This document shows, piece after piece, positions 9,001 to 64,000 of a stretch of DNA of 64,000 bases. Origin of the DNA: Candidatus Margulisiibacteriota bacterium (GTDB lineage: Bacteria > Margulisbacteria > Riflemargulisbacteria > GWF2-35-9); the NCBI GenBank assembly GCA_028715625.1, contig JAQURL010000005.1, positions 1 to 64,000 of the forward strand, in the 5' to 3' direction. Numbering within the stretch: position 1 is the stretch's first letter; each line of letters starts with the position of its first letter. The notes beneath the pieces were generated by a model. It ran no database searches. It saw nothing but the letters and a program-made list of their open reading frames with translations, and had not been told where the DNA came from. The translations under genes were made by a program, and so were the position numbers.

Positions 9001-9100
9001 TGGGATGATTTGAAGGAAACCTGGAACTACATATGTATTTATACAGAAGATCATGCCCAACCCATTAATGCTTCGCAACCTATCGCTATTTTAGTAGGCA
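1..9100 (+). repeat. Tandem array of ~26 Ig-like ~112-residue modules
   Basis: Within the giant gene, about 26 units of roughly 335 bases each follow one another. Each protein unit shows W-Y near its start, a central 'F-x-D-x-G-x-S-x-L' turn, a 'W-x-I-x-W' pair, the signature 'G-T-N-D/N-I-Y/I', 'D-x-A-x-N', and a boundary of the form 'F-x-I-K-K-D-x-x-x-P'. Boundaries can be counted at 'KKD', 'LKD', 'RKD' or 'YKD'. DNA identity between units is mostly low, but some blocks are identical, so there has been recent exchange on top of old duplication. The fold looks like a bacterial Ig-like beta sandwich; I cannot assign a family. Confidence 0.85.
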
Positions 9101-33100: not shown

Positions 33101-36100
33101 ATGATGAAACAGAAGGTACCAAAGTTTTGTACGCCTGGGTAAAAAATATTAACAATATTAGCCTTAAACCGACAACGGCCTCAATTACTCTGGATAAAAC
33201 ACTACCCATTGCTAATATTATTTTCGGAAAAGATAAAATGGGATATGGCCGGCAAACATTTTTTATTGATATTTCCGAGGAGTTGGATTTGCAGCCTACG
33301 GTTTCCTTATATTTTAATTCTTTATCCAATACTCGCTACATGAGTATTTCAGGTTCAGGCAAGAAATACAGCGCTGAATTTTATTTTACTGAGGATTTCG
33401 GAGAAGGTATGGTGTCAGTCTCTATTCTGATGACAGACAGGGCCGGTAACGTATCGACGCTTAATACAGGAATGCAGAGCGTTTACCTGAAGATGCTCTA
33501 TCCGGAAAAACCGAGATTGAAGATTTCAGACAGAAACAATTATGATCAGACCCAGTATGCAAATGATGACAAAGTACGTTTATGGCTGGCAGTAACCGAT
33601 AACGAATCCGTCTGGTATATAGTTGATGATACATTCGGAACCGTACCTAAAACAACGGATCCGCGTTGGTCCTCCATGAATTTCAATCTGGTCCTAACCA
33701 GTTGGAACATAGACGGGAAACTGATTAATTTCGACTACAGTGGTTATGACCATAGTAAGGGTTATCTGAATAAAACTTTCTATGCCTGGGTAAAGAACGT
33801 TAACGGTTATGTTAATATAACTCCGGCTGTGCAAAGTATTACAGTGGATTTTGACGCGCCGGTAGTAACCTTAAATTATACGCCATTTAATAGTTTGCCC
33901 GGTCAATTGATAAATATGACCATTAACTGTCAGGAAAAGATACAAATATTAAGTTCGGATATAGTTTATAATGACGATACGTACACAAGCCTTACTTTTA
34001 CAGAACTGACAGATAAGTGCTGGTATGCAAGCATTATTCCCAACAAGCAAAAACAATCATCATTCATCGGAACAGTACAAGACCTGGCTGGAAATACCAC
34101 CGATATCCACGTTCAACTTCAGCCCTATTTGCAGGTGATCAGCATTAATGTTTTAACCAGGAATGTCGGCCGCTGGAGTACTAACGTGCCCTTAATGATG
34201 ATCGGGGTTTCTCCATCTGCCAAAGTTATATTGAATTCTTTGAAAGTGGAAAAAATCAATGATGAGCTGCATAAGTCTTTACGCACTCTCAAACTGGTAT
34301 CCGCAGACGGCCAGTTATTAAATACAACCTTATATGAAAATGACAGCTCCACGGTCGAATTCCTTTTCAACGGCCTGGAAATCAAAGACCCCAGAACTTT
34401 TTATGTCTATGGAGATATTGAAAATTCAGCCATGGAGCCGTTTAGACTAAAGATGGTTCAGAGCTATTTCGGCGTCAGTTCGTATAATATTGTTAAAAAC
34501 GATAATTTGCCTTATACAACTCCGACCATAGACATCAGGAACGGTTTTAATATGCTGCAAATCTACAATGAAGATACGGCGATGCCCTCCAGAACAGTGC
34601 AGGTCAGACAATATGATCAGAACGTAGTGTTTTTTGAGTTTTTAATGAAAGGTTATCCTTACAGTGTTAAGGTTAACTCCTTAACACTCAATATCCTGGG
34701 TGACCTGCCGCTTAATTATATAAATAATTTTAAAATGTATCAGGATACAAATTATGACGGGATATTTAATAAAAATGACGATTATTGTTTTGATAACACG
34801 GACATAAATATATTGAGCGACAAGATAATCTTAAAGAATATCGGAGCTTCTATCAGTAATGTAAGTCAGAAGTATTTTATTGTAGGCAATCTGGCCATAG
34901 ATACACCGGTAAGCAGCAGCATCAGAATGGTTATCCTCAATAATAAAAATGTAGGATTGATCAATAAAGAAGATATCGTAAATGACAGTTATATGCCTTT
35001 ATCATCTTCCACTCTTATGGTTGCCAATTATATTCCCAAAGTATCTATCAGTAACAGGAACTTATACTATGGCGACGTATTCCAGGGTGACGTGGTCCGT
35101 GGTTATGCATCATTCAGGTTCCTGACCGATTTTTATACATCCAACCTGAGCAAGATAGGATTCAGGGTTTCCGGTAACACAACTATTGATGATATCCAGG
35201 ATTTCAGACTGTATTCATCTGTATCCGATTTATCCATGATACCGGACAACAGTACGATGTTATCAACGATAATAAACAAAAATGAATCACAACTGAATAT
35301 AACATTACTACCACAACTGGTCGTTACTACGGGTTCACCTTATATTTATGTAGAATTGCAAATCAGAGAAAACGCCAACACCGGCAGCATTCAGTGTATC
35401 ATGGAAAAAAGCAATATTTCTGTTAACGGGCAGATAATTAATACTGAAAATATTGTCTTTGGAGAATTGAATATTATAGATACACGTCGTCCGATTATTT
35501 CCGAAGTAAACATCCCTCAATTTGTAAATAAAGCAGATATTTTAACCTTTAATTTTGACGCTTATATAAAAGAAAAAAATAATATGATTTATAAAATTGA
35601 AGCTTCGCTTGGCAGCAAGAGAGGTTCCAGTGATGTATTGGCATGGACTCCGTTTAATATTGAAAAACAGCAGTATATTATGGACAAGAAAATTTTGCTT
35701 AGCAATATCAACTTAAAACACAATAATGAATACTATCTGAATTTAAGGACATATGGTACTGACCCCTTAGGCAACATCTATGTTTCCAATGAAAAGATTA
35801 CAACCTTCAGAGTGGATCTTACACCTCCACTTACACCAGACGGCAGCAAGATATTTATAAATCAGAATGTTATCGGGAATAAAGATAATAATCAGCAAAA
35901 TGTCTTTTATATTACCTGGCCTTCGGCCAAAGATGACGAATCCGGAGTCAAATGTTATGAATTGCAGGTAAGGTCAGGCACAAACCAGAAATGGGAAGAT
36001 ATCAGCACAACATTAACGCAGAATTACTTTAAAATGGTTGATTTGGACCTGCATAAACGTTATCAATACAGAATGCGTGCTCTTAATAATGCCAGCTTAT

Positions 36101-39235: not shown

Positions 39236-40111
39236 ATGACAGAAGAACAGCAAAAAAACGAATTATTTGAAGAATTGATCTTAAAACTCAACGACATTAT
39301 GCCTTTGCCTGTGACGGTAAAAAAGATTATAGAGCTTACCAGAGATCCGAACACTGAACTGAAAGATCTGGTTGTCGTATTAGAAAAAGATCAGGCCATG
39401 GTTTCTAAAATATTGAAGCTGGCCAATTCCTCATATTACGGTTTTTCCAAACAAATAAAAACGATCTCTCATGCGGTTGTTTGCCTGGGTTATAATACCA
39501 TTAAAAATATGGCTTTGGCTGTTTCCACTTATTCCATGTTTGATAAAAGTATTGTCAGTTATGCCCTGGAAAAGGGTGCTTTGTTCAAACACAGTTATGC
39601 TGTGGCTATAGGTTCCCGTATCATTGCCAAGAAAGTAAAACATATTAACCCTGAAGAAGTATATGTTATGGGCTTGCTTCATGATATAGGCAAGATAATC
39701 CTGGACCAGTATGCCAAGGACAAATTTATTGATGTTATCCGTTTATTCCGCAAAGGTAGTATTACTTTCCTGGCAGCTGAGGAACAGGTCCTGGGCTTTA
39801 ATCATGGTGAAATAGGAGCTAAGATAGCAGAAAAATGGAACCTGTCGGATGAGCTTATTGAGTCAATACGTTATCATCATCATCCGCAAAATGCCAGTCC
39901 CGAGAATGTATCGGTTCATATGGTTCATATTGCTGATGTGGTGGTTGAAATGATGGGCCTGGGGCTCGGTTATGACGGCCTTAATTATGAATTGTGCCCG
40001 GATTCAATGACCAGGTTGGGCCTGGAAGGAGCTGATATGGAAAGCTTGATGATTCAGATCATGGACGAATTAAAAACAGATAGTCTGGAAATACCCGGGG
40101 CAGAACAATGA
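39236..40111 (+). CDS. HDOD-domain signalling protein
   Basis: A 291-residue protein. Residues ~15-215 form an HDOD domain: 'LPLPVTVKKIIELTRDPN', 'LEKDQAMVSKILKLANSSYYG', 'ISHAVVCLGYNTIKNMAL'. Unlike many HDOD proteins it keeps His-Asp residues (LLHDIGKIILDQ, FNHGEIGAKIAEKW, YHHHP), so hydrolase activity of HD type cannot be excluded. HDOD proteins often act in motility and c-di-GMP pathways, commonly near chemotaxis genes as here. A clear ribosome-binding site (AGGG) precedes the ATG. Its TGA stop overlaps the fliM ATG (ATGA), indicating translational coupling. Confidence 0.85.
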   Translation: MTEEQQKNELFEELILKLNDIMPLPVTVKKIIELTRDPNTELKDLVVVLEKDQAMVSKILKLANSSYYGFSKQIKTISHAVVCLGYNTIKNMALAVSTYSMFDKSIVSYALEKGALFKHSYAVAIGSRIIAKKVKHINPEEVYVMGLLHDIGKIILDQYAKDKFIDVIRLFRKGSITFLAAEEQVLGFNHGEIGAKIAEKWNLSDELIESIRYHHHPQNASPENVSVHMVHIADVVVEMMGLGLGYDGLNYELCPDSMTRLGLEGADMESLMIQIMDELKTDSLEIPGAEQ

Positions 40112-41130
40112 GCAGCATATTATCTCAGGAGGAAATCAATGCGCTCTTGATGGGAGTTATGGATGACGGGGCTGCAACACCTGTGGTAGAAAATACTGTT
40201 GAAGAAGGAGAAACAGCGGTCACTCAACAAAAGTCCAGTTTTATTGAAGAATTTCAACATATTACCAAATATGATTTTCGAAGACCTAATAAATTTTCCA
40301 AGGATTTACTGAGAATACTTAAAAGTTTCCATGATAACATGGCCCGTTTGTTCAGTGCTTCTTTATCCGTTTATCTCCGCCAGGATGTGAAAGTTCATTT
40401 AACCTATATCGAGCAACATACCTATTCGGAATATATAGAAGATTCCAGTGAAAAATCACTATTTTATATAATTTCTTTTATTGATGATCAGGCCATTCTT
40501 AGCCTGGATGTTAATATCGGCATGCTGCTTGTGGAAAAATTACTGGGTGGCGAAGGAAAGAAAGTCGACACCGAGAGAATGGAACCCACCGAAATTGAAA
40601 TGACAATTATAAAAAATATTCTGGACAAGCTTTTTCAACATCAGAAAGAAAGCTGGGGCGATGTAATGAAGGATTTACCTCGTATTATTACCATTGAAAA
40701 TAATCCCAGAGTTATTCACCTTGTCCAGCCGAATGACATAGTATTAAAAATGGTTTTTGAAATTACAATAGGTGACGGGGTCGGTATTTTTACTTTTTGT
40801 ATACCTTATATAGCAATTGAGCGTGTGTTAAATCAGTTGCTGCAAAGCCAGTTTGTGAGGATGCAGCATCAATTCGTTAAAAAGTCCGAAGAGATGGAAA
40901 GAAATTTAAAAGGCGCAAAAATAGATATTTCCGCAGAATTGGGAAAAACCAATCTTACAATTGAAGAATTGATATCTGTAAAAGTCGGCGATATTGTAAA
41001 ACTGGAAACCAAAAAATATAACGATTTACTGCTTTGGGTAGGCGGGTTAAAAAAGTTTACCGGGGAATTGGGCGTATCTGATAATCACTACGCAATAAAA
41101 ATAAAAGGCGTTAATGATAATCTTCTTTGA
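40108..41130 (+). CDS. fliM: Flagellar motor switch protein FliM
   Basis: A 340-residue protein of standard length. The N-terminus 'LSQEEINALLMG' is the CheY-P docking motif of FliM. The middle domain has 'FRRPNKFSKDLLRILKSFHDNMARLFS', which binds FliG in classic motors. The C-terminal SpoA/FliN-like domain shows 'LTIEELISVKVGDIVKLE' and 'LLWVGGLKKFTGELG'. In a flagellum this forms the C-ring that CheY-P acts on. No fliN, and no separate fliG or fliF, is in the window. A FliF-FliG-like fusion is encoded at 58117-59967 instead. Start overlaps the stop of the HDOD gene by four bases. Confidence 0.93.
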   Translation: MSSILSQEEINALLMGVMDDGAATPVVENTVEEGETAVTQQKSSFIEEFQHITKYDFRRPNKFSKDLLRILKSFHDNMARLFSASLSVYLRQDVKVHLTYIEQHTYSEYIEDSSEKSLFYIISFIDDQAILSLDVNIGMLLVEKLLGGEGKKVDTERMEPTEIEMTIIKNILDKLFQHQKESWGDVMKDLPRIITIENNPRVIHLVQPNDIVLKMVFEITIGDGVGIFTFCIPYIAIERVLNQLLQSQFVRMQHQFVKKSEEMERNLKGAKIDISAELGKTNLTIEELISVKVGDIVKLETKKYNDLLLWVGGLKKFTGELGVSDNHYAIKIKGVNDNLL

Positions 41131-41158: not shown

Positions 41159-42202
41159 ATGGCACAAATCAGACTTGTAAAACCGGAAGAAAGAACAACC
41201 GAATATATCGGCAACCCGGATGTCATTGTTTTGGATCAGAAGACCGAGGTTGCGGTTGAGATGGATAACCTCTACAAAAAGAAGGGGCAATTAACTGAAG
41301 AAATTGAAGAAATGGAGAATAAAAAAGAGCGGTTGTTTGAGGAATTGAAATACCTGAGTTATCAGCTCAATAATCAAAATCAAAAGGCCAGACAGGATTT
41401 TCAGGAAGAAATTAAGGGCATGAAAAACAGGGTCATGCAGGATATTCAAAAAATGAAGGAACAAGCGGAAGGCGAGATTTTTTATCTGAAACAGCAAAAA
41501 GAATCCATTATGAGAGAATATTCCGATGAAATAAAAAAGATGGCAATTGCCCTGGATAAACAAAAAAAATTATATCTTACTAAAATGCAGAGCTTTAAAG
41601 GTAAATTTGAGGATAGTGTACAAAAACTTATAACCATATACGCTGACCGGAAAAAAGAAATAACCGGAAATCTGCAGGTTATGCAAAAAGAAAAAAAAGA
41701 ATTTGAACAGCAATTGCAAATTAAATTTGAGAAAGAAAAAAAAGATATGCGCAACGAATATTTCAAAAAACTGGCAGAGGTTAATGAAGAGTATAAAGAA
41801 CAGATCGCTGCTAAAAAACAACAGCACGAAAAGCTGCTTGAGGATTACGAGTATCGTCTGCGATCCGAAAAACAATCTTTCGAAAAGAAACTTATTGAAA
41901 ATCAAGATATGTATCAAGTCAAGCTGGGTGAGATTAAACAGCAATTCGTACCTTTAATTAACGAAGAGACTGAAAAGTATAAACAAATTTTACAGCAGGT
42001 CGGCAAACAGAGAGAGACTCTTGTTCATCATTATAAAATGGAAGTGACTGCGATTAAACAGCAATATTCTTCGCTGCTGGAGCAGGAAAAAAAGAACTAT
42101 AATTCATTATTCAGTGAGATAACAGCAAAAAAAGATGAATTCTTGAAATCCTATCAGGCTCTATTAGAAAGAACAGCACAACTGGAAGACGAAAATAAAT
42201 AA
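41159..42202 (+). CDS. Coiled-coil protein encoded next to fliM
   Basis: A 347-residue protein, almost entirely charged coiled coil from about residue 35 to the end, rich in Lys, Glu and Gln. The first ~30 residues (with 'VKPEERTTEYIGNPDVIVLD') look like a short globular or docking segment. No family is recognised by eye. Residues ~111-157 ('KQQKESIMREY', 'LDKQKKLYLTKM') align without gaps to residues ~1778-1824 of the giant rod protein encoded at 52156-57975, with about 18 identities in 47. It begins 28 bases after fliM with no obvious ribosome-binding site at optimal distance. Its position suggests an accessory part of the motor or of the same rod-like structure. Confidence 0.75.
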   Translation: MAQIRLVKPEERTTEYIGNPDVIVLDQKTEVAVEMDNLYKKKGQLTEEIEEMENKKERLFEELKYLSYQLNNQNQKARQDFQEEIKGMKNRVMQDIQKMKEQAEGEIFYLKQQKESIMREYSDEIKKMAIALDKQKKLYLTKMQSFKGKFEDSVQKLITIYADRKKEITGNLQVMQKEKKEFEQQLQIKFEKEKKDMRNEYFKKLAEVNEEYKEQIAAKKQQHEKLLEDYEYRLRSEKQSFEKKLIENQDMYQVKLGEIKQQFVPLINEETEKYKQILQQVGKQRETLVHHYKMEVTAIKQQYSSLLEQEKKNYNSLFSEITAKKDEFLKSYQALLERTAQLEDENK

Positions 42203-52155: not shown

Positions 52156-55100
52156 TTAGTTATAGATTTTATTAATTTCAACCTGATATTGTGCCTGTAA
52201 ATTTTCCAGTTGATTTTTGAAGTTACTCTGGATGTCTCCCAGTTTGTTCTCGAAAAGGTTTTGCTTGTTTTCAAAGACTTGTTGTTTTCTGGCCAGAAGC
52301 ACTTTATATTCCTTATCTTTGTTTTGCAAATGAGAATCAAAAGATTTTTTTATGGTAGCCAGTTGTTGAACATAAGTTTCCTTGATTTGATCTTTATCAG
52401 GCTCAAATACGACCTTTAATTTTTCAACATCTTTTTGACTTTGTTCTTTCATCGTTTGCAGATTTTTTTCATAGTCATTCTGAATAGCCAAATATTGTTC
52501 ACGGAGTTCGAAAATTTGTCCTTCAAAGTGTTTTTTCACCTGTTCCATTTTTTGAGTGTAAATGATTTTTTGCTTACTTAAGGAAATCAGCAATTTTCTT
52601 ACAGTATTATTATAATCATTCATAACAGCTTCTTTTTGAGTATTTAGCTGTACTATCTCTTGTTGGGTTTTATTCTTTATTATTTCAACATCAGCTAAGG
52701 ACATTTCTTTTAATTGGGCGATTTTCTCCAAATTTTCCATTTCTATTTTTTTTGCTTTCTCTTCAGCTTTTTCGATAATTTTTTTACTGTCAAATTCATT
52801 TTTTTCTTGAAGCTGAGCGATCTCTTCAAGCTTTTTTACACTTTTTGTTTCTATTTCTTTGGCTTTTTCTTCTGCTTTTTCTTCTAATTTTTGTTTCTTT
52901 TGCAGGGCTTCCTGTAGAATTTTGTCAGCCTCGAAGCGGGCTTTATTTTCTATGTTATTTTTTATAGCCGTAGAAGCTTCCTGAATTTTTTCAGCTTTGT
53001 TCTGAGCTTCCTCGATGAGAGCAAAAGCCTTTACATTGGATTTCTCCAGGATATTCTTTGCTTCAATCTCTGCTTTTGTAATTATTTCCGATGCTTCCTT
53101 TTCCATCTTAGACTTTTCCAGTTCATTTTCTTTCTCAGCATCTTTTATCATTTGTTTAGCCTGCTGCTTTGCCTGAGAAACCATACCGGTTGCATTGTCT
53201 TTAGCCTGATTAATAATTTGCTCCGATTGTTCGATGGCCATTTTTTTAAGCTGTTCAATTTCAGTTAAAGCTGATTGCTTTTGCTGGCGCAGGACTTCTT
53301 CTATTTCTTGTTTATGTTTTTTAGAATTTTTAATGATTGATTCAGCGTCTTTTTCAGCTTCTTTCAGATAATCCCTGGCAATATCTTTGGCATCCGAGGA
53401 AATTTTATCGGCTTCTACCCGGGTTTCATTTAAAATATTATTTGATTCCAGTTCAGCTTCATGAATTAGTGTTTGGGCTTTTGCTTTTATATGGTCAGCT
53501 TCCAGCCGTGCCGCGACAATCAGCTGGTCTGCAGTATTTGTAGAGATTTCTCTGATTTCTTCTATGTCTTTAAGTATAGATTCCTTAAGTTGCAGCAGTT
53601 CTTTTTCACCGTTTTTTCTATTAATTTCTGCGTTATCTATTATTTCATCAGCCTGTTTCTGTGCGTTTATTAAAATAACTTTTGACGTCCCGGCTGCTTC
53701 CAGCTTAATACGTTCAGCTTCACTGTTAGCAAAATCTATTGTTTGCTCGCATTCAGCCTGCATCTGCTGTACGTCTTTTCCCATCTCCATTTTCTTTTGT
53801 GTCGCTTCATTTATGATTTTATCTGCCTTGCGCTGGGATTCAGCTATATTTTTTTGAGTTTGTAATTCCGCTGATTTTTTTGTTTTTTCGGCAATAGAAA
53901 TTATCAGGCTTGCCTTTTGATGGGCATTAACCAGAAGCTGTTCAGCCTGGTCTTGAGCATTTTCCAGCAATTCTTTGGCTTTAATTTCAGCTTCCCGCAT
54001 TTTTTGATCAGTTTCTATCCGGAACTGCTCAGCTTGTTCAACGGTAATTTCAGCTTCTTTCTCATATTCTTTAACCGCGATTCTTGCTTTTTCCATTATG
54101 CGCTCAGCTTCCAGTTGAGCTTCATAAATTAATGCCGAAGAATTTTTGGTTGCGTCCGCCAGCATTCTTTCGGCATCGAGTGTTGCCTGTTTATTAATTT
54201 GTTCGGCATCATTTTTTAAGAACTGGGCATCGGATTCTGCTCCGGCTTTGAGTTGAATTGCGCTATTGTGTATATACTCTGCTTTTTTCTGAGCCAGTTC
54301 TACCAGTTCATTAGCCTGAATACCGGCGTTTTTCAGGATCCGGTCAGCTTCAAGGTTTGCTTCTGCGCTAACCTGTCTGGCGTCATCTTTCCATTTTTGT
54401 ACTTCCTGTTTATAATCTTCTTTCTGCTTCAAAGTTCTGTTTATAATGGCTTCAGCTTCATTCTGGGCATTGCTGATTATCACTGCGGATTTACCTTGGG
54501 CCACAGCCAAAATACTATCCGCTTCCGCTTTGGCACTATTAATAATTTGCTGGAACTCTTTTTGAAAATGTCTTTTGTTGGCTTCTGTCTGTTGCTTGAC
54601 CTTATTGGCATCTTCAAGAACAGACTTTGCGTCCTGTTTGGCTTTTGTCAGGATATTGTCGGCTTCCAGCAGTTTTTTGCTTACAACTTTTTCAACATCA
54701 AGTCGTGCTTGTTCGGCCTTCATGCTGATTAGCTGTACGTCTTTTTGCGCAGCCTGAATAATCTGATCTGCCTTGGCACAGGCATCGTCTACCATTTTGC
54801 CGGAACTCATATTGGCCTGTGCGCTGATTTGCATTGCTTCATCCTTCAGAAGCTGGGCGCTTCCCTCAGCTTCGGCCTTAACAAGATTGGCATTATCAAT
54901 TATGAAGTCAGCTTTTTTCGTGGCAGTTTCCAGAATTTCCTTAGCTTTGTCCTCAGCTTCTTTTTGAGCGGTTTTAATAATATTTTTCGATTCTTGTTTT
55001 AATTCCTGAAGTTCTGCCTTTAACTGGTTTTTTTGCAGTTCGGCTTTATCAATAATATTCTGTGCGTCAGTTTTAGCTGATCCCAGAATGTTTTCAGCCT

Positions 55101-57975
55101 GAGTTTTGGCTTCAATGATTATTTCATCAGCTTCTTTTTTGGCTGATACTGTTTGCGTCTGGTTTTCCTGCTGGACCTTGGTTAACAATTCATCCACTTT
55201 ACTATAAGCATTGGTAATAAGTTCATCGGCTTCTGCTCTGGCAGCAGAGAGGATTTCCTTTTCTTTATCAGTAGCCCGGGCAAGAATACTGTCATATTCT
55301 TTTTGAGCGTCGCGGTTCAGGGCTTTTGTTTCATTTTTCATGGCTTGCAGCTCTGTTTTTAATAATTCTTTTTGTTCCAGAACCTTGTCAAGAATACTTT
55401 GAGCTTCATTCTGAGCAGTCTGAACAATTTTCTCGGCTTCCTGCTTGGCCATTGCTGCTTGTGTTTGATTGTCCTGCTGGACTTTGTTCATCAATTCAGT
55501 TGTTTTATTGTAGGTTTCGGAAATTAATTCATCAGCTTTGACTCTAGCCGCAGAGAGTATACCTTTTTCTTTGTTAGCAGCCTGGGCGAGAAGATTGTCC
55601 TGCTTTTCCTTTTGTTCCTGTGCCTTAGCCAGAATACTCTGAGCTTCATTCTGGGCAGCCTGAACAATTTTTCCAGCCTCCTCTTTGGCCAAAGCGGCTT
55701 GAACCTGAGTATCCTGCTGAACTTTGCTGAGCAGTTCGTCGACTTTGCAATAAGCACTGGTAATGAGTTCGTCGGCCTCAGCCCTGGCAGAGGAAAGCAT
55801 TACTTTTTCTTTCTCGGCAACCTGAGCAAGAAGATTGTCATATTCCTTTTGAGCGTCACGGTTCAATGCTTTTGTCTCATTTTTCATAGCTTGCAGTTCT
55901 GTTTTCAACAATTCTTTTTGTTCATTAGCCTTAGTCAGTATGCTTTGGGCTTCATCATGGGCAATTTGGATAATTTTATTGGCTTCCTGTTTAGCTAATG
56001 CCTCTTGAGCTTTATTGTCCTGCTGGGCTTTGTTTGTCAATTCTTCTGCTTTATGAAGAGCATTAGTGATTAGTCCATCGGCTTCAACCCTGGCCGAAGA
56101 AAGGATTTCTTTTTCTTTAACTACAACATCTTGCATCCGAAGATCAAATTCTTTCTGCGCCTGCTTGTGAAAATCCCTGGCTTCGGAAATAATCACCATC
56201 GATTCATCCTTGGCTTTTTGTAACAAACTGTTGGCAGCATCTTGAGCTGTGCCGGTTATTTCACCTGATTTTATTTTTTGTTCCTGGAAATAATTAGTCG
56301 CATTAGCCTTTATTTGTTTTGCCTCATTAATAATACTGTCAGCATTTTTTCTTGCCTCAGCAAGAATTTGTTCGGCTTCCTGATTGGCATTATTAATGAT
56401 TTGCTGTGAAACTTTGTTGAACTGTTTTATGTCTGTCTGGTTTTCAGTCTTTATTTGTTCTGCCCTGGCCATAACTTGTTGTGCTTCATTCATAGCTTTA
56501 GCTAAAATATTCTTGGCGTTATCTTTGGCTTCGTTAGTAATCTGTTCCGCGTCGGCTTTAGCCTGCACCAGGATATCTTTATAATCATCCTGAATTTTGC
56601 TTAAATTATCTTTCAAGTTATCTTTATGTAATTTTTGAAGAACTGTGTCCGCCTGTTTCTGGGCTTCAAGAATTATATTTTTAGCTTTCTGATCTGCTTC
56701 GGATATGGTTTTTTCAGATTGTTGCCGGGCTAATTTTTTAATTTCTTCGATATCGCTTAAGGCAAATTCTTTGATTTTTTGGACTTCCATATTCGCTTCA
56801 TCTTTTAATTTTGAGGCTATTTCCAGTACTTCATCCGCCTTAAGCTGTGCTTGCTGGGAAATGACTCTTGCCTGTTCCGAAGCCCTGGTCAATATTTCTT
56901 CCGCAGTAGCCCTGGCCTTGCTTGTGATTTCCATGGAACTTTGTTTTAATTCCTGCACATTTTGTTCGGTTAGCTGTTTGGAAGAAACAGCATTACTGAC
57001 TATTGATTCGGCTTTTTCATGAGCGTCTTTAATAATTTTTTCTGCTTCTTCTCTGGCTTTATTGATTATTTCATTTGTGTTTTGTTTAACCTGATCTATG
57101 TTTTTATTAGCGTTATCTTTGGTCTCTACAACATGGGCCAGAATAATGCCGGCTTCTTTTTCGGCTTGTTCTGTAATGAGCCGGGCTTTTTCATTAGCTT
57201 CAATAATAATTCGTTCGGATTCTTCTCTGGCCTTGCTTATTATTTCATTAGTGTTTTGCATAAGCTGGTCCATGTTTTTGTTAGCATTATCCTTGGCTTC
57301 CACAACATGGGATAAAATAGTATCGGCTTCTTTTTCAGCCTGTTCTGTAATAAGCCGGGCTTTTTCATTGGCTTCGGCAACGATCTCATTGGCTTCTTTT
57401 AAAACGAGATCTTTATATTGAGTGGCTTCCTCTATTTTTTTTGTTTTTAAATGTTCCAGTTCTTCATATGCTTTTTCAATAAATTTCAGAGTATAGGTTT
57501 GTGATTTATTTATAATATCATTTTGAACCAGAAGTACTTTGTCCGTTGCTGGCGATTCTTCCTGGCCATTAGCCGGAGAGCTTTGTTTAATGGTGTTTAT
57601 CTTAAGGGATAGTTTTTCATTGCGTAATCTGGCAATATCATTCTGCAACTCTTTCTGCAAACGCAGATATTCACTTAAAATTCTCTCCTGTTGTTCTTGC
57701 TGAACTTTAAAGTCTTCTCGCTTTTTAAGTTCAAAATTTTTAACTTTTTCCCTGGAGCTGTCCAGGCTGTTTTTTATAGTTTCAAGCTCCATGGCCAGTT
57801 TATTTTTTTCTTCGCGGGCTTTACGTAAATCGTCATCAATGCGTATTTTTTCTTCCTGGGATTTAATAAGCATTTGTATGGTTTCGGACGTATTTATTTT
57901 GTCAGAACCAGTTGTTTCTTTGTGAATAATTTTTATATCCGGATTAGATATGGTTTTTTGCGTTTTTTTCTTCAT
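52156..57975 (-). CDS. Giant hendecad-repeat coiled-coil rod protein (1939 residues)
   Basis: A 1939-residue protein that is nearly all coiled coil, rich in Ala, Glu, Lys and Gln, with recurring 'A-x-x-E-A-x-x-I-I/L-x-x-A' 11-residue (hendecad) patterns like those of Scy/FilP-type cytoskeletal proteins. Residues ~1-50 are less ordered and basic. Near-identical blocks repeat: 'EANEKARLITEQAEKEA' recurs 58 residues apart, and 'ARAEADELI' blocks recur 80 and then 102 residues apart. The last ~160 residues change to a heptad-like character and are homologous to part of the fliM-linked coiled-coil protein. No transmembrane segment is seen. It follows the FliF-FliG fusion gene by 141 bases and has its own candidate promoter. 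I infer a long cytoplasmic rod or scaffold; function unknown. Confidence 0.85.
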   Translation of the reverse strand: MKKKTQKTISNPDIKIIHKETTGSDKINTSETIQMLIKSQEEKIRIDDDLRKAREEKNKLAMELETIKNSLDSSREKVKNFELKKREDFKVQQEQQERILSEYLRLQKELQNDIARLRNEKLSLKINTIKQSSPANGQEESPATDKVLLVQNDIINKSQTYTLKFIEKAYEELEHLKTKKIEEATQYKDLVLKEANEIVAEANEKARLITEQAEKEADTILSHVVEAKDNANKNMDQLMQNTNEIISKAREESERIIIEANEKARLITEQAEKEAGIILAHVVETKDNANKNIDQVKQNTNEIINKAREEAEKIIKDAHEKAESIVSNAVSSKQLTEQNVQELKQSSMEITSKARATAEEILTRASEQARVISQQAQLKADEVLEIASKLKDEANMEVQKIKEFALSDIEEIKKLARQQSEKTISEADQKAKNIILEAQKQADTVLQKLHKDNLKDNLSKIQDDYKDILVQAKADAEQITNEAKDNAKNILAKAMNEAQQVMARAEQIKTENQTDIKQFNKVSQQIINNANQEAEQILAEARKNADSIINEAKQIKANATNYFQEQKIKSGEITGTAQDAANSLLQKAKDESMVIISEARDFHKQAQKEFDLRMQDVVVKEKEILSSARVEADGLITNALHKAEELTNKAQQDNKAQEALAKQEANKIIQIAHDEAQSILTKANEQKELLKTELQAMKNETKALNRDAQKEYDNLLAQVAEKEKVMLSSARAEADELITSAYCKVDELLSKVQQDTQVQAALAKEEAGKIVQAAQNEAQSILAKAQEQKEKQDNLLAQAANKEKGILSAARVKADELISETYNKTTELMNKVQQDNQTQAAMAKQEAEKIVQTAQNEAQSILDKVLEQKELLKTELQAMKNETKALNRDAQKEYDSILARATDKEKEILSAARAEADELITNAYSKVDELLTKVQQENQTQTVSAKKEADEIIIEAKTQAENILGSAKTDAQNIIDKAELQKNQLKAELQELKQESKNIIKTAQKEAEDKAKEILETATKKADFIIDNANLVKAEAEGSAQLLKDEAMQISAQANMSSGKMVDDACAKADQIIQAAQKDVQLISMKAEQARLDVEKVVSKKLLEADNILTKAKQDAKSVLEDANKVKQQTEANKRHFQKEFQQIINSAKAEADSILAVAQGKSAVIISNAQNEAEAIINRTLKQKEDYKQEVQKWKDDARQVSAEANLEADRILKNAGIQANELVELAQKKAEYIHNSAIQLKAGAESDAQFLKNDAEQINKQATLDAERMLADATKNSSALIYEAQLEAERIMEKARIAVKEYEKEAEITVEQAEQFRIETDQKMREAEIKAKELLENAQDQAEQLLVNAHQKASLIISIAEKTKKSAELQTQKNIAESQRKADKIINEATQKKMEMGKDVQQMQAECEQTIDFANSEAERIKLEAAGTSKVILINAQKQADEIIDNAEINRKNGEKELLQLKESILKDIEEIREISTNTADQLIVAARLEADHIKAKAQTLIHEAELESNNILNETRVEADKISSDAKDIARDYLKEAEKDAESIIKNSKKHKQEIEEVLRQQKQSALTEIEQLKKMAIEQSEQIINQAKDNATGMVSQAKQQAKQMIKDAEKENELEKSKMEKEASEIITKAEIEAKNILEKSNVKAFALIEEAQNKAEKIQEASTAIKNNIENKARFEADKILQEALQKKQKLEEKAEEKAKEIETKSVKKLEEIAQLQEKNEFDSKKIIEKAEEKAKKIEMENLEKIAQLKEMSLADVEIIKNKTQQEIVQLNTQKEAVMNDYNNTVRKLLISLSKQKIIYTQKMEQVKKHFEGQIFELREQYLAIQNDYEKNLQTMKEQSQKDVEKLKVVFEPDKDQIKETYVQQLATIKKSFDSHLQNKDKEYKVLLARKQQVFENKQNLFENKLGDIQSNFKNQLENLQAQYQVEINKIYN
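55260..56110 (-). repeat. Near-identical DNA blocks inside the rod gene, 546 bases apart
   Basis: The segment encoding 'ELLKTELQAMKNETKALN' with its flanks is present around 55313-55380 and again around 55859-55925, exactly 546 bases (182 codons) apart. A shorter relative lacking a 22-residue insert lies between them. A second pair, 58 codons (174 bases) apart, is at 57181 and 57355. The sequence similarity at DNA level points to recent duplication or gene conversion within the gene. Confidence 0.8.
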
Positions 57976-58116: not shown

Positions 58117-59967
58117 TTACATATTTTTGAACAGAGCGTCAATTTCGTCCTGGTTCATTTTCGCGTTGTCCACGCCGAATTCTTTTTGTTTGATACTGAT
58201 GCGTCCCATTTTATTTAAGGCTTTTGCTGTTTTTATCAGGTAATCTTTGGCATTAGCCAGCTCAACTTCAGTAAAATTGTCTTTTCTTAAAGAAATTACT
58301 TCTTTGACCATGGCTTGAAGACCTGGAGCGAGCCCGCTGATCATGGTGTTGCGTTCATCTTCCGGAAATGATATCAGGCACATGGCCAGTAAGTTGGGAT
58401 CAAGCTCCATAAATACCTTGGTTAAATCTTCTTTGTTAAGGGATAAAACATCCTCGAAAAGAACAATCATGTCACGGATTTCAGCCAGTACATCCGGATG
58501 TTTTTCGTGCAGGGCCATGGTCAGTTCTGTTTTCTTTTCCGTAGGGAATTTGTCCAGCAACGGTAATACAGCGTGTTTCCCTCCGATAAGACAGGCAACT
58601 TTTTCTTTGTAAGTTTTTTCCAGCTCTTCAATATCTTTGGCAGGATATTCAATTTCGTAAGTCAGAAAAGGAATAATGTCCGTTTGTTCTTCGGTATCGA
58701 ACCTGGAAAAAATTACACTACCCAGATGGCTTGGCAGATAGGAGATTATTATAGCTACTTTTTGCCAGAATAAATCCTTATTAGGGTCATCAGCAGGAGG
58801 TTTGTCCCTTTCCAGCAAATAGGCAAGTTTGAGAATATTGCCTTCATTAACAAATTCAAAATAATCTCTGGTGCCGGCATCTTGTTTTATAGTGATTTCA
58901 TCGTCAAAACCTTTGGTTGCAGCGTCAACGTTAATGCTGCTATTTGCTATTTGCGACGACATGCCACTCCCCCCGCCGCCGCCATAACCCCCACCACCAC
59001 CACTGCTTGATTCTTTAGCGCTGCTTTCAGCTACGGTGGTAGCAATCCCGCTGGCGCTTTTTGCCAGCATAAACATAGCCAAGGCAACACCGGCAATTGT
59101 TAGGATTAGCAATATTCCCAAACCGATAAAAATGAGCTCTTTTAGTTCCAATTTATTTGCGGATGAACTTTTTTTATTAACCAGTGTACTGATAAATTCT
59201 TTAGAAGACTTGATTTCATTTTTAAAAAATTCTATGTTCTGATTATTTTCCACGGAACTTGCCTCAGCCTGTCGCATGCTGTTTTCTATAAGCAATTGAA
59301 ATTTTTTGTCACTGTCATTCATTAAAACCGTATTCATGTCGGCATTATTTTTAAGAATTTCCTTGATACTATCCAGGAATTTGGCATCAGCCTTACTTGT
59401 ATCATTTTTTTCAGGTTGGTAGAAATTTTCTTTATACAACTGAATTGTACTGTTCCGATACAAATCAAAGTCCAGCCAGCTTTTGATTTTTTTCAGGACC
59501 TCATCCTCATTTTTTATGGAAGAATTTAGCCAGACAGTAACTTCATAATGGCTAAAAATATAGACATTTTGAATATTGGACTTGGCAATTTGTTTAATTG
59601 GGACTCCAGGTAAAAATAATGTTTGGACACGCTGCGCGTTTTGGTTATTTACTTTCACCCGGACTTTAATAGCCACAATAACCTGATTTATTCCGAATAT
59701 TTTATCCAGCAGATTTTGCAGGTCTTTTTCTTTGATCTGTTGATAGGAAAGAATTTCCGAACTGGAGTTAAATTCCATTTGTGTATTTTTTTCAGTATTC
59801 ATAGATAAGATTTCTTCGGTATTTGTTTTTACAATATTGGACACGGGAAATTCTTTATTAAAATTTATGTCAGGATTTTCCTCACAAATGCTAACACTTG
59901 AAAATAGAAGTAAAAGAATAAGCATGACCCGGCGAGAAAATTTTGCTAACAAAGTTTTTTTACACAT
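58117..59967 (-). CDS. FliF-FliG-like membrane fusion protein with C-terminal CheY-docking-like motif
   Basis: A 616-residue protein. Residues 1-27 form a signal peptide or first membrane anchor. Residues ~75-185 resemble the last periplasmic (ring-building) part of FliF, with 'LQNLLDKIFGINQVIVAIKV' and 'KKIKSWLDFDLYRNSTIQLY'. The FliF N-terminal ring domains are absent. A transmembrane helix spans ~279-303 and a Gly-rich hinge ~322-334. Residues ~370-505 match FliG armadillo domains ('IIISYLPSHLGSVIFSRF', 'DVLAEIRDMIVLFEDV') and ~506-592 the FliG C-terminal domain. The last 12 residues, 'MNQDEIDALFKN', look like the FliM/FliY motif that binds CheY-P. It starts one base after the TPR gene and lies between that gene and the rod gene. 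It may form an MS-ring/rotor in one chain. Domain assignment is by eye. Confidence 0.72.
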   Translation of the reverse strand: MCKKTLLAKFSRRVMLILLLLFSSVSICEENPDINFNKEFPVSNIVKTNTEEILSMNTEKNTQMEFNSSSEILSYQQIKEKDLQNLLDKIFGINQVIVAIKVRVKVNNQNAQRVQTLFLPGVPIKQIAKSNIQNVYIFSHYEVTVWLNSSIKNEDEVLKKIKSWLDFDLYRNSTIQLYKENFYQPEKNDTSKADAKFLDSIKEILKNNADMNTVLMNDSDKKFQLLIENSMRQAEASSVENNQNIEFFKNEIKSSKEFISTLVNKKSSSANKLELKELIFIGLGILLILTIAGVALAMFMLAKSASGIATTVAESSAKESSSGGGGGYGGGGGSGMSSQIANSSINVDAATKGFDDEITIKQDAGTRDYFEFVNEGNILKLAYLLERDKPPADDPNKDLFWQKVAIIISYLPSHLGSVIFSRFDTEEQTDIIPFLTYEIEYPAKDIEELEKTYKEKVACLIGGKHAVLPLLDKFPTEKKTELTMALHEKHPDVLAEIRDMIVLFEDVLSLNKEDLTKVFMELDPNLLAMCLISFPEDERNTMISGLAPGLQAMVKEVISLRKDNFTEVELANAKDYLIKTAKALNKMGRISIKQKEFGVDNAKMNQDEIDALFKNM

Positions 59968-59968
59968 A

Positions 59969-60943
59969 TTAATCTTCCAGGGTTTGCAGGAAGTAGATTA
60001 TTTCCTGATTGTTGGGCTGATAATGTAAAACTCTTTTCCAATATTTTTTGGCCCGTTCATAATCCTGTAACATATAATAGATTGAGCCTTTAAGCGACAG
60101 TGCTCCGGTATGCGTTGGATCTTCTTTTAAAATAAGGTTACATTCTTCTATAGCCAACCAATACTGTGATTCATAAAAATATAACAGGGCTTTATTCAGA
60201 CGTTTGGTGAGCAGGTCAAGTGATTCATTGGATAAATCTTCATAGAGTTGCTGATATTCGGTATCTTTTTTAGTGGCAACCTCCCAGAACATATCTATGA
60301 AAAAACGATTACGGTTATAATATGAACTTAGTTCAATTTTATCCAGCGACTTGGTGTTGCCCAACACAAAATCACTTACAGCCGATCCGACAATGTTTCT
60401 TTCTTTTTTCACCAGATTTTTTTCATAATTTTTTACTTCTTTTTCAATGTTGGGATTCTTTTTTAAAATCAGTATGAATTTTTCTCTGGTCAGCAGATCG
60501 TTATTCCCGTTGAAGCTGCTGAAATCTGTATCAGGGAAAAAGTTTTTTAATATTTTTATGGCAGCATTGATAGAAACCGGAGCTAACGGATCGGAAATTG
60601 TTCCATCAACAAATTTCTGTTCGATGGCGGTCTGCACGTAGGGAAAAGCACTCAGTTTACCGGTTATTGTAGATATATAGGGAATTTTGGCAGTAAAGTT
60701 GGGGGTCAGATTATTCATGACCATACCGATCAGCGCCACCTGGATTGCGTTTAAATGCGCGTTAAGCTGAAAAGTATTGTCTGTAAAAAGAGGCAAATAA
60801 TTGTTGCCGGCAAAATATTGGATGTCATTATAATATGTGTTGTTTGCGCTGACATCTGCGACATCCAGAGAAAAAACAGGGCATGTTTGAAAAAAAAGGA
60901 TAGCGGTACATACTATTGATATAATAATTCGTTTTTTAAAAAT
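59969..60943 (-). CDS. Secreted TPR protein, inferred ATT start
   Basis: A 324-residue protein if translation starts at ATT (60943). A TTG at 60796 is the first usual start codon, but the 49 codons before it continue the frame and spell a textbook signal peptide (MFKKRIIISIVCTAILFF, cleavage near 'CPVFS'). AGGGG lies seven bases before the ATT, and a stop codon three codons upstream excludes a longer frame. The mature part has an unassigned N-terminal region (~residues 30-230). At the C-terminus are two to three tetratricopeptide repeats, with 'ALLYFYESQYWLAIEECNLI' split across 'ALSLKGSIYYMLQDYERAKKYW' (residues ~255-320). TPR proteins in the periplasm often assemble motor or secretion parts. 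It is one base upstream of the FliF-FliG-like gene, so the two are coupled and probably interact. Confidence 0.8.
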   Translation of the reverse strand: MFKKRIIISIVCTAILFFQTCPVFSLDVADVSANNTYYNDIQYFAGNNYLPLFTDNTFQLNAHLNAIQVALIGMVMNNLTPNFTAKIPYISTITGKLSAFPYVQTAIEQKFVDGTISDPLAPVSINAAIKILKNFFPDTDFSSFNGNNDLLTREKFILILKKNPNIEKEVKNYEKNLVKKERNIVGSAVSDFVLGNTKSLDKIELSSYYNRNRFFIDMFWEVATKKDTEYQQLYEDLSNESLDLLTKRLNKALLYFYESQYWLAIEECNLILKEDPTHTGALSLKGSIYYMLQDYERAKKYWKRVLHYQPNNQEIIYFLQTLED

Positions 60944-61081: not shown

Positions 61082-61438
61082 CTAGGATGTTAACTTATTA
61101 ACCAGAGTAATGAGCTTTTCTTCGTCAAAAGGTTTAACCAGAAAATTTTTAGCGCCATTTTGTAAGGCGTCCATGATAGTTTTTTGCTGGGACTCATTGG
61201 TGAGCATCACGACTTTTGCATTTCTATTTATTTTAATGATTTCTTTCAAAGCAGTTAATCCGTCCATTTCAGGCATGTTCACATCCATAAACACCATATC
61301 CGGGTTTTCACTTTGAAACATTTGAATACCGTTAGCCCCATTTACAGCTTCCAAAATGGTATGACCGATCGGCCCCAAAATATTTTTTATACGCATGCGA
61401 ACAAAAGAAGCGTCATCAATAACAAGTACTTTGGCCAT
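61082..61438 (-). CDS. cheY: Single-domain response regulator, CheY type (copy 1)
   Basis: A 118-residue stand-alone receiver domain. 'VLVIDDASFVRMRIKN' has the acidic pair, 'MVFMDVNMPEMDG' the phosphorylated Asp (about residue 52), 'VVMLTNES' the conserved Thr and 'FLVKPFDEEKL' the conserved Lys. It should carry the signal from a CheA kinase (not in this window) to a motor switch, either FliM or the FliF-FliG-like protein encoded downstream. The two CheY copies here share the pattern 'MAK-x-LV-x-DDASF-x-R' and are paralogues. It has no Shine-Dalgarno sequence and probably a leaderless mRNA. The 138 bases between it and the TPR gene (60944-61081) hold no supported gene. Confidence 0.92.
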   Translation of the reverse strand: MAKVLVIDDASFVRMRIKNILGPIGHTILEAVNGANGIQMFQSENPDMVFMDVNMPEMDGLTALKEIIKINRNAKVVMLTNESQQKTIMDALQNGAKNFLVKPFDEEKLITLVNKLTS

Positions 61439-61455: not shown

Positions 61456-61809
61456 TTAAAGCAGTTCATTAAGGCAGCTGATAATTTTTTCATCATCAAA
61501 AGGTTTGGCAATAAATTTTTTGGCTCCGCATTGAATGGCTTCCATAATTCTTTCTTGTTGAGCTTCATTGCTAAGCATTATTACTTTTGCAGATTTATCA
61601 AAATCGATTATTTCTTTTAAGGCTTCAATTCCATTCTTAACAGGCATGGTAATGTCCATAAAAACAATTTGTGGTGAATCTGATTTATATTTTTCTACTG
61701 CTATTTGACCGTTTTCAGCTTGAATAATTTCATGTCCGGATTTTTTTAACATATTTGCAATCTTAATTCGCATGAAGGAAGCATCATCAACGACAAGTAT
61801 TTTAGCCAT
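61456..61809 (-). CDS. cheY: Single-domain response regulator, CheY type (copy 2)
   Basis: A 117-residue receiver domain with 'ILVVDDASFMRIKIAN', the phosphorylatable Asp in 'IVFMDITMPVKNG', Ser in the switch position ('VIMLSNEA') instead of Thr, and Lys in 'FIAKPFDDEK'. It is the first gene of the minus-strand run that leads to the TPR, FliF-FliG-like and rod genes, and it is divergent from motA. Copy 1 follows after 17 bases but with its own -10 box. Two CheY proteins in one locus suggest either a signal and a phosphate sink, or two targets (FliM and the FliF-FliG-like tail); this is an inference. Confidence 0.92.
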   Translation of the reverse strand: MAKILVVDDASFMRIKIANMLKKSGHEIIQAENGQIAVEKYKSDSPQIVFMDITMPVKNGIEALKEIIDFDKSAKVIMLSNEAQQERIMEAIQCGAKKFIAKPFDDEKIISCLNELL

Positions 61810-61964: not shown

Positions 61965-62744
61965 ATGGAACTCAATATTATTTTAGCGCCTATAGTTATG
62001 GTATTTATTCTCTGGATAGGATTACCCGAGATTTTACATAAACCCATGGAATATTTGCATGCAGCGTCAATTATGATCGTTTTGGGTGGTTGTATGTTCG
62101 CCCTCATTCTGGGATCAAAATTTACAAATTTTAAATCATTCCTCAAGGCCCTGACTTTTATTGTGGTCCCGCCAAAACATACTGAGGCAGAGCATGCTAT
62201 AAACACAATCGTGGAATTGGCTCGTGTAGGCAAAACCAAAGGTAAATCCGCTATCGTTAGTGAAATAGATAAAATTAAGGACCCATTTATGAAATATGGT
62301 GTCCAGTTGGTTGTAGATAAAACAGGGGAAAATTTTATCAGGTCCGCTCTCTATAATACCATTGAAGAAATGCAGGAGAGGCACAATATTATTATAACCT
62401 TATATAAAAACATGGCAGTTATAGCACCGGTTTGCGGTATGGTAGGTACTATAGTTGGTTTGATCCAGGTATTAAAAAACATGTCCGACCCTTCAACATT
62501 AGGGGCTTCAATGGCTTTGGGATTAATAGCCACTTTTTACGGAGGATTTTTTTCTGGGATGGTCTTCAGTCCCATCGCGCAAAAATTGAGAATATTAAGC
62601 GATGAAGAAGCACACTTAAAAAGAATGATGACCGAAGGTATTTTATTTATTGAAAGGGAAGAAATCCCTTTGAAAGTTGAGAAATATTTATATAGTTATC
62701 TCAGTTTTGCCAAATCTGATAAAAAAGGTAAAAAAGGCAAATAA
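61965..62744 (+). CDS. motA: MotA-type stator protein
   Basis: A 259-residue proton- or sodium-channel stator subunit with four hydrophobic segments: two near residues 1-50 and two near 145-205. 'IAPVCGMVGTIVGLIQVLKNMSDPSTLGASMALGLIATFYGGF', split over residues ~148-190, is the conserved MotA/PomA core. 'RMMTEGILFIEREEIPLKVEKYL' matches the C-terminal cytoplasmic end. The cytoplasmic loop (~50-140) carries the charged residues that would touch FliG. In the flagellar motor MotA4-5B2 rings turn the rotor through FliG. It is divergent from the cheY genes and followed by motB at one base. Confidence 0.93.
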   Translation: MELNIILAPIVMVFILWIGLPEILHKPMEYLHAASIMIVLGGCMFALILGSKFTNFKSFLKALTFIVVPPKHTEAEHAINTIVELARVGKTKGKSAIVSEIDKIKDPFMKYGVQLVVDKTGENFIRSALYNTIEEMQERHNIIITLYKNMAVIAPVCGMVGTIVGLIQVLKNMSDPSTLGASMALGLIATFYGGFFSGMVFSPIAQKLRILSDEEAHLKRMMTEGILFIEREEIPLKVEKYLYSYLSFAKSDKKGKKGK

Positions 62745-62745
62745 G

Positions 62746-63462
62746 ATGAGCTATAAGAAAAAAGTACATCAGGAGGAAGGCGAGAGTCCAATCGGATTTG
62801 TAATGTTCGGCGACCTTATGTCGCAGCTACTTTGTTTCTTTATTCTACTTTACGTCTTCGCAACAATAAGCGCCGCAAAATCCGGAGGAACAGACTATAC
62901 GGATATGATCGCTCAAATGAGTCGAAATTTCAAACAAACAATGGAAAGAAAACCTATTACTATTCAGGAACCCAAAAAGGAAGAAAAATCCAAGCTGGTA
63001 GAGAAGGTTAGGCAGGTACTTATTGACCAGAAGCTGGAGCCATTTGTAGACTTGATTGTGGAGGATAAAAAAATCAGACTTATTTTTTCACAACCGGTTT
63101 TGTTTGATATAGCAGACGCCACTCTAAAGGCTGATTTCGCGAAAACATTGTCTCCGGTTGCCGATATAATAAAAGGAATATCCAATAATATAGTAGTTGA
63201 AGGTCATACAGACAATGTGCCTATTCATACTGAAAAGTATGATTCCAACTGGGTTCTTTCTTTTCATAGAGCATATAGCGTGGTAAATTATTTAACACAA
63301 ACCAAAGGTATAGACCCGCAGCGTATTTCTGTAATGGGTTATGGTGAATACAGACCAAGATTTGCCAATGATACGCAGGCAAACAGGGATATGAACCGTC
63401 GTATCGAAGTAATAATTCTAACCGATGCAAATTTTGCCAATCCAACTCCTGCTTCTAAATAA
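62746..63462 (+). CDS. motB: MotB-type stator protein with OmpA domain
   Basis: A 238-residue stator subunit. I take the ATG at 62746, one base after the motA stop; an in-frame ATG at 62677 lies inside motA and has no reason to be used. A basic N-terminus is followed by a single transmembrane helix with 'FGDLMSQLLCFFILLYVF', whose Asp (residue 23) is the ion-carrying residue of MotB. Next come a linker with a plug-like amphipathic part and an OmpA peptidoglycan-binding domain (~residues 145-232), with 'VVEGHTDNVPIHTEKYDSNW', 'LSFHRAYSVVNYL' and 'NRRIEVIIL'. It anchors the stator to the cell wall. The 99 bases to the next gene contain an AT-rich stretch with a possible -10 only. Confidence 0.94.
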   Translation: MSYKKKVHQEEGESPIGFVMFGDLMSQLLCFFILLYVFATISAAKSGGTDYTDMIAQMSRNFKQTMERKPITIQEPKKEEKSKLVEKVRQVLIDQKLEPFVDLIVEDKKIRLIFSQPVLFDIADATLKADFAKTLSPVADIIKGISNNIVVEGHTDNVPIHTEKYDSNWVLSFHRAYSVVNYLTQTKGIDPQRISVMGYGEYRPRFANDTQANRDMNRRIEVIILTDANFANPTPASK

Positions 63463-63561
63463 AAAAATCGTCAGAATCGTTTAAATCCTTGCAATTTCCG
63501 GAGAAATGTTTAAAAACTATATAAATAGGGTATGGTGTATGTGGGGGATCAGAGTATTCGT

Positions 63562-64000
63562 ATGCGAAAAATTATATATATATTATTAATTTGCTCTGTG
63601 GGCACATTTGCGATTGAGCATTATGGTTCCTTCGCGGAATGGAATGTGGGTGCGCGTTCTCTGGCGATGGGCCGGGCATATGTTGGACTGGCTGATGATG
63701 CATCTTCTTTATTTTGGAATCCTGCCGGAGTTATGCGACTTAAAAGCATGCAGGCCATGTTTCAGATGGTTATGCTCTATGAGCAATATAATATGATGTA
63801 TGCAGGTTTTGCCCTTCCCGGCGCGGAATCCGCTCTCGGTGTGGAATTTTTAATGCTCGGCGGCTCGGGTATTGAAGGGCGGGACAAATATAATCAATTC
63901 ACACAGATGGTCCAGGACAGCAAAATGGCAATAGGTTTAACTTATTCAAAAAGGGTTATGCAAAATGTGTTCATGGGCCTGAAGGGAAAATATTTTATGA
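63562..64000 (+). CDS. PorV/PorQ (UPF0164)-family outer-membrane protein, 3' end outside window
   Basis: The first 146 codons are in the window. A signal peptide (MRKIIYILLICSVGTFA) is followed by 'GARSLAMGRAYVGLADDASS' and 'LFWNPAGVMRL', the hallmark start of PorV/PorQ and UPF0164 outer-membrane beta-barrel proteins, then alternating strands such as 'ALGVEFLMLGGSGIEGRD'. In Bacteroidetes, PorV carries proteins bearing type IX C-terminal domains to the cell surface. In other phyla members often accompany large secreted proteins with the FlgD/T9SS-like C-terminus, as the giant gene here has. An ATG at 63532 is in frame, but the ATG at 63562 gives the proper signal peptide and has GGGGG (63543-63547) upstream. 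Confidence 0.82.
   Translation, partial: MRKIIYILLICSVGTFAIEHYGSFAEWNVGARSLAMGRAYVGLADDASSLFWNPAGVMRLKSMQAMFQMVMLYEQYNMMYAGFALPGAESALGVEFLMLGGSGIEGRDKYNQFTQMVQDSKMAIGLTYSKRVMQNVFMGLKGKYFM

Follow-up and report, generated by a model that had tools for sequence, protein, structure and literature searches.

The question raised by this locus is whether a protein that appears to join parts of FliF and FliG in a single chain belongs to a flagellum or to some other machine, and whether CheY might act on it directly. The window, by which we mean the whole stretch of 64,000 nucleotides that was analysed, holds the complete open reading frame of this fusion (58117..59967, minus strand), which encodes 616 aa. 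To our knowledge, it is only from flagella that MotAB-driven rotors of the FliG type are known, and a rotor of this kind outside the flagellum would be of some consequence.

Domain architecture of the fusion

From its N-terminus, the chain contains a signal peptide or transmembrane helix (residues 4-30, 59878..59958), recognised from its hydrophobic sequence and as a helix in the AF2 model; a periplasmic domain resembling RBM3 and collar of FliF (residues 69-180, 59428..59763); a transmembrane helix (residues 275-308, 59044..59145), seen in the model and in the sequence; a disordered, Gly-rich hinge with pLDDT <50 (residues 307-365, 58873..59049); and the middle and C-terminal domains of FliG (residues 378-592, 58192..58836), all encoded on the minus strand. 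The FliG part is recognised even from a single sequence: FliG_C (PF01706) matches residues 485-592 with E=8e-10 and 39.4 bits, above the cut-off of 23.3, and FliG_M gives a match below its cut-off at residues 402-432 (E=3.5e-4). TIGR00207, the equivalog-level model of full-length FliG, reaches 36.8 bits against a cut-off of 226.7, and no match to FliG_N was found in the Pfam and TIGR00207 profile searches. A profile built from seven fusion orthologues retrieves FliG M-C structures from the PDB with E=1.8e-11. A Pfam match to MgtE_N (E=0.0023) presumably reflects the known similarity of that domain to the FliG fold.

The FliF part is weak when judged from one sequence, where the SpoIIIAG model matches below its cut-off (E=1.3e-4). 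When 32 related fusions were aligned by hhalign to FliF of the same phylum, the probability was 97.1% (E=5e-11) over RBM3 and collar, compared to 0.1% for the reversed-profile control; with the eight closest sequences only, it was 4.9%, and the case for the FliF domain thus depends on the wider fusion family. The AF2 model (mean pLDDT 72.5) has a pTM of 0.38, so that the relative placement of the domains in it is uninformative; it nonetheless contains an RBM fold of the order helix-strand-strand-helix-strand at residues 69-180, a long helix at residues 219-265, FliG-like helices at residues 378-587 with pLDDT mostly >90, and a separate short helix at residues 606-614, in the tail. Foldseek searches with this model return FliG structures first (FliG MC 1lkv, E=1.5e-8), followed by the RBM3/collar of FliF (6sd1, E=0.01, probability 1.0). 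Only one RBM fold precedes the transmembrane helix in the model, i.e. RBM1 and RBM2 are absent. The preliminary description had proposed a FliF-FliG-like fusion with precisely this order of segments; the Pfam, PDB-profile, hhalign, AF2 and Foldseek results bear it out, and we regard a one-chain architecture of FliF RBM3/collar, membrane helix and FliG M/C as virtually certain. A sporulation channel of the SpoIIIAG type can be ruled out, since the match reflects the RBM3 domain that FliF has in common with it, and FliG and MotAB accompany it here.

The C-terminal tail and the FliM-docking site

The chain ends in NQDEIDALFK (58126..58155, minus strand), which had been singled out earlier as resembling a CheY-docking motif. 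This resemblance holds within one clade, where the tail is conserved in 10/10 proteins (from 8 genomes) as Q-x-[DE]-[IV]-D-x-[LF]-[FI], a few residues past an invariant Phe; outside the clade it is absent. When the ten tails are aligned, Asp is constant and Gln, Ile and Leu are nearly constant, so that the pattern Q-x-[DE]-I-D-x-L-[LF] is conserved. In the FliG tree, a supported branch (100/96) separates the ten proteins from the rest, and a single gain of the tail is thus sufficient to explain its distribution. A fusion paralogue on contig C25 of the source genome carries a degenerate version, DKKIDELF. In 396 proteins (147,943 aa), the strict motif Q.[DE]ID.L[LF] was found seven times, in six fusion tails and at the N-terminus of FliN, and this rarity argues against a chance occurrence; a looser form of the motif, applied to the same proteins, also catches the N-terminus of FliM and a few others. 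Among the local open reading frames, the best match of a tail profile outside the fusions is again the N-terminus of FliN (E=0.0045), while FliM scores poorly (E=5.4). The canonical FliM of the window (40108..41130, plus strand; PF02154, 5.8e-45) carries the N-terminal docking peptide SQEEINALL and served as the reference for the tail.

Binding of CheY by peptides of FliM and CheZ is established according to PMC9659070 and references therein; the CheZ peptide, which is C-terminal (Guhaniyogi 2006, cited in PMC9659070), provides a precedent for a docking peptide at this end of a protein. Judging from the residue pattern, we consider it moderately probable that the tail binds CheY. An entirely different GTPase partner is suggested by the PDB search with the tail profile, in which the sole matches at E<=10 were C-terminal helices of MglB (AEMSDDDIDNLF; E=0.069) and FliM was not among them: the tail might dock the Ras-like MglA, as the MglB helix does, instead of CheY. 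However, MglB-family proteins are absent from 55/55 genomes in which positive controls were detected, the Arf-family matches found in 19 genomes sit in open frames of at least 329 aa, none of them the size of MglA, and it is CheY genes that adjoin the fusion. With no MglB in the 55 genomes and no MglA-sized gene in the 19, docking of MglA is largely refuted, and we believe it to be highly improbable. As a separate observation, the CheY-docking peptides of the FliM/CheZ type have a lookalike in the MglB C-terminal helix (DDIDNLF), possibly through convergence.

The EHPQ motif is the site at which FliG docks FliM (PMC4642947). In our alignment, 6/6 canonical FliGs keep it, as EQPQ in this phylum, and every fusion has lost it; most members of the tail clade have (L/x)(Y/F)WQ at this position. 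That one chain has lost FliM docking and acquired a FliM-like peptide would be consistent with CheY acting on such a rotor without the help of FliM. The tail might instead serve, as a conserved peptide, to dock a different partner, such as a CheC/CheX-like phosphatase, a chaperone or a coiled coil, or else a self-inhibitory helix, given that CheY binding is what we infer from the motif and that the fusion on contig C33 has an adjacent CheY, yet no tail. Against such a partner, which we think unlikely, stand the match of the residue pattern to the N-termini of both FliN and FliM of the same genome and the loss of EHPQ in the very proteins concerned.

Stators, neighbouring genes and flagellin-free relatives

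On the plus strand, the window contains genes for a stator: a flagellar-type MotA (61965..62744; PF01618, 1.8e-24; PDB matches to PomA/MotA) and a MotB (62677..63462) with a peptidoglycan-binding OmpA domain (PF00691, 1.1e-18) and a plug/transmembrane region (PF13677, 1.5e-8). MotB retains the conserved channel Asp (FGDLMSQ), as do the other fusion-linked MotBs. The source genome encodes four fusions, on contigs C5 (this window), C25, C2 and C33, and a flagellar-type MotA/MotB pair lies within about 4 kb of each; there are 10 MotA/ExbB genes in this genome, two of which are ExbB/TolQ-like and located away from the fusions, and by a rough estimate the chance that all four fusions would have MotAB beside them is about 1e-6. 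In the tree, the MotA of the window groups with MotA, not with ExbB/TolQ; those of C5, C2 and C25 form one clade (100/99) with that of the related genome G002, while the tree is too poorly resolved to show all fusion-associated MotAs as a single clade. In relatives, MotAB is present at several but not all fusion loci; it was not seen in the stretches fetched for G003, G004, G001, G005 C9, G006 C110, G007 and G039, some of which end at contig edges. We consider it likely that the fusion is driven by MotAB.

The residues through which this would happen have changed. In E. coli FliG, R281 and D288-D289 face MotA (PMC12505986). R281, D289 and R297, all of them torque charges, have each disappeared from all fusions in the alignment; an acid at 288 persists in these fusions only in 8/10 members of the tail clade, where the residues at R281/D288/D289/R297 are G/S, E (8/10), V and T/A. 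Either the interface with these MotAs is altered, or force is passed differently, and because of this loss of the classical torque charges, the word rotor is, for the fusion, one that we infer.

The genes next to the fusion point to both signalling and the cell surface. The minus-strand run consists of two CheY genes, an SLH-TPR protein, the fusion and a coiled-coil protein of 1,939 aa; MotA, MotB and a PorV-like protein follow on the plus strand beyond the CheYs. The CheYs, a short way upstream of the fusion in the run, have their nearest matches among motor CheYs like that of T. maritima (61082..61438, minus strand; Response_reg 6.6e-29, best PDB matches motor CheYs; and 61456..61809, minus strand; Response_reg 2.2e-27, best PDB match T. 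maritima CheY, 8.5e-32). The periplasmic SLH-like/TPR partner (59969..60943, minus strand), identified by TPR matches and its upstream frame, has a listed start at 60796 (TTG), but its open frame, with a signal peptide, reaches to about 60943, and no ATG, GTG or TTG start is present between 60796 and 60943. In the C25 paralogue and in G007 this protein is joined to the N-terminus of the fusion, which suggests that the two are in contact. Its SLH domains may bind the cell wall, which would sit ill with a freely turning ring.

The coiled-coil protein directly downstream (52156..57975, minus strand) has the N-terminal motif NPDIKII. Large cytoplasmic coiled coils were also observed beside other fusions, MotAB or FliM (41159-42202 in the window; L042; L037 6443-8155; L035 9951-11153), and several of them share the motif N-P/N-D-I/V-x-I/V/L-I/V within their first 20 residues.

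The PorV/PorQ-like outer-membrane protein (63532..63999, plus strand), cut by the window end, is of the same family as a neighbour of the fusion at the C25 locus, which passes the PorV-family model NF033709 (94.7 against a cut-off of 90). At the other end of the window, a surface protein of 12,147 aa (19..36462, plus strand), made of repeats and cut at or near the contig start, has a C-terminal sorting domain of the type IX kind (TIGR04183, 27.2 bits, cut-off 23), with FlgD_ig/CHU_C below cut-off. Giant proteins of the same family adjoin fusions in C2, G003, G001, G005 and G007, and giant sorting-domain proteins and PorV-family proteins stand beside many fusions. Both of these features of a putative type IX system are over their cut-offs; for SprA, in a search run without a positive control, PF14349 had no match and TIGR04189 short sub-threshold matches only. 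We note separately a protein of 1,714 aa in C2 (L109 3691-8835) that matches SprA positions 590-650 weakly but repeatedly. It was assigned to no family by Pfam, NCBIfam or PDB searches, and almost every genome searched encodes a protein similar to it.

These neighbours lend themselves to a non-rotating envelope complex, in which MotAB and the fusion would push or pull a trans-envelope chain, like TolQRA or AglRQS, and surface proteins would thereby be secreted or moved, the tail being the target of CheY or of some other regulator. The loss of the torque charges, a partner that may be tied to the cell wall, and the nearby PorV-like proteins and type IX-like sorting domains would all agree with this; we nevertheless hold it to be improbable, although worth considering, as the fusion retains both RBM3 and the FliG C-terminal domain and the MotA is of flagellar type, not of the ExbB/TolQ type.

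Whether the fusion serves a flagellum can be addressed from its distribution. The preliminary description had called for a search for separate fliF, fliG, fliN and flagellin genes, and the source genome indeed has a normal fliF-fliG operon (on C45), FliN and three flagellins, as well as two FlhA copies and hence two flagellar-type export systems. On C43 (L086) lie FlgH/FlgI-like proteins and a set of a FliF-like protein of 485 aa, a short FliG-like protein of 202 aa and a FliI-like protein; a further motor-like set on C61 (L085 660-5131) encodes, in one run, a FliF-like protein of 439 aa, a FliG-like protein of 334 aa with all three FliG domains, MotA, MotB and a FliM-like protein of 191 aa. 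The fusion paralogues on C25, C2 and C33 measure 855 aa (46% identical to the C5 fusion), 498 aa and 545 aa, respectively, and the C2 fusion is followed by a second, FliG-only protein. Such FliG-only proteins (225-266 aa) were observed after C2-type fusions in general (L036 9279-11568 in C2; L047, L048), and this pairing looks as if the rotor had two kinds of FliG.

A search of genome contigs with the single fusion protein gave no match, while an alignment used as the query retrieved five named Margulisbacteria records, with Candidatus Marinamargulisbacteria, Margulisbacteria GWF2_35_9 and a Termititenax-labelled MAG among the matching relatives, which places the source genome in Candidatus Margulisbacteria. 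Fusions were found in 29/74 of the Margulisbacteria genomes searched. In a set of 55 genomes, 23 have a fusion and eight have flagellin; all eight flagellin carriers also have a fusion, which leaves 15 carriers of the fusion in which flagellin was not detected, and of these genomes, five have a completeness of at least 90%. Some flagellins could be hidden by incomplete assemblies, but not plausibly all of them. FlhA is present in 52/55 genomes; a flagellin-free, flagellar-type basal apparatus seems to be widespread in the phylum and, with its export apparatus so common, there may be a link between the latter and the fusion.

An accessory or alternative rotor of a true flagellum, such as a second MS/C ring in some flagella, would be in keeping with the flagellar origin of the FliF and FliG domains and with the flagellins and double FlhA of the source genome. 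We think this quite improbable: the fusion occurs in at least 15 genomes without detectable flagellin, and thus cannot as such be counted as a flagellar part; the source genome already has its normal operon and the second FliF/FliG-like set of L086; and rod, hook and export genes are absent from the fusion loci. The FliF domains RBM1 and RBM2, which line the export gate, are also absent from the fusion. Very probably, therefore, the fusion is not a part of the flagellum. Beyond what had been described initially, the fusion is decoupled from flagellin and belongs to a group of four rotor-like paralogues that have MotAB pairs of their own.

A putative surface motor and its relation to known systems

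An ion-driven stator of its own and many flagellin-free relatives make the system look like a steerable motor at the cell surface, and we tentatively suggest, at somewhat short of even confidence, a MotAB-driven, CheY-steered, non-flagellar motor with a one-chain rotor. The fusion would be the rotor-like subunit of an ion-driven motor separate from the flagellum; its copies would form a ring in the membrane through RBM3, which MotAB would turn or push by way of the FliG C-terminal domain. Phosphorylated CheY might dock on the flexible tail, replacing the FliM step, and so change the direction or engagement of the motor. Force could then run through the SLH-TPR protein to the PorV-like outer-membrane proteins and giant adhesins, resulting in a gliding-like surface movement; movement of surface adhesins as the output is possible, and we hold this, too, at slightly less than an even chance. 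More speculative still is the generalisation to a Margulisbacteria class of chemotaxis-steered surface motors, flagellum-free and present as several paralogues per cell, with one-chain rotors that have their own MotAB, bear the CheY site and move giant adhesins.

If one-chain rotors exist across a phylum even where flagellin is missing, the core for torque and switching must be able to operate as a module, which would be relevant to the origin of the flagellar motor or to its dismantling. Were the rotor subunit itself to bear a docking peptide, this would be a natural switch free of FliM, making it testable how much of the C ring is needed for switching.

Novelty had been suspected for the system as a whole. 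This does not extend to the fusion itself, as a natural FliF-FliG fusion has already been reported in Chlamydiaceae (Bergeron 2016, PMC4768692); for the motor system, we found no description in the open-licence literature. The chlamydial protein likewise has FliF and FliG in one chain, but it is built in reverse: at about 330 aa, it keeps the SctJ-like parts, lacks the SpoIIIAG-like third domain and has the FliG M region only, whereas in the Margulisbacteria fusion RBM3 is the only RBM and is joined to both FliG M and FliG C. Descriptions of the chlamydial protein mention neither a MotAB pair nor a Gly hinge or CheY-like tail, and it is thus a precedent for the fusion only.

The gliding/type IX motor of Bacteroidota (GldLM, SprA, PorV, SprB) is similar in that an ion-driven stator of the 5:2 type is found together with PorV-family proteins and with giant surface proteins that end in a sorting domain; here, however, the stator is a flagellar-type MotAB and the rotor is FliF/FliG. 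The Agl-Glt gliding motor of Myxococcus also reuses a MotAB-like stator for surface movement, together with coiled-coil and TPR proteins, but AglRQS, which groups with generic ion transporters (PMC12505986), lacks a FliG partner, and in the Margulisbacteria genomes searched MglB is absent and no MglA was found.

The closest relative remains the flagellar rotor (FliF MS ring and FliG, with MotAB and CheY), which shares the RBM3/collar, transmembrane helix, FliG M and C domains, flagellar-type MotAB, CheYs and a CheY-docking-like peptide. The fusion differs in being one chain, without RBM1-2 and FliG_N and without EHPQ and the classical torque charges; in lacking rod, hook and filament genes at its locus and occurring in genomes without flagellin; and in carrying the docking-like peptide on the C-terminus of the rotor itself. 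With its pattern Q-x-[DE]-I-D-x-L-[LF], this peptide is of the same kind as the short amphipathic helices at the C-terminus of CheZ and the N-terminus of FliM, but here it sits on a FliG-like protein.
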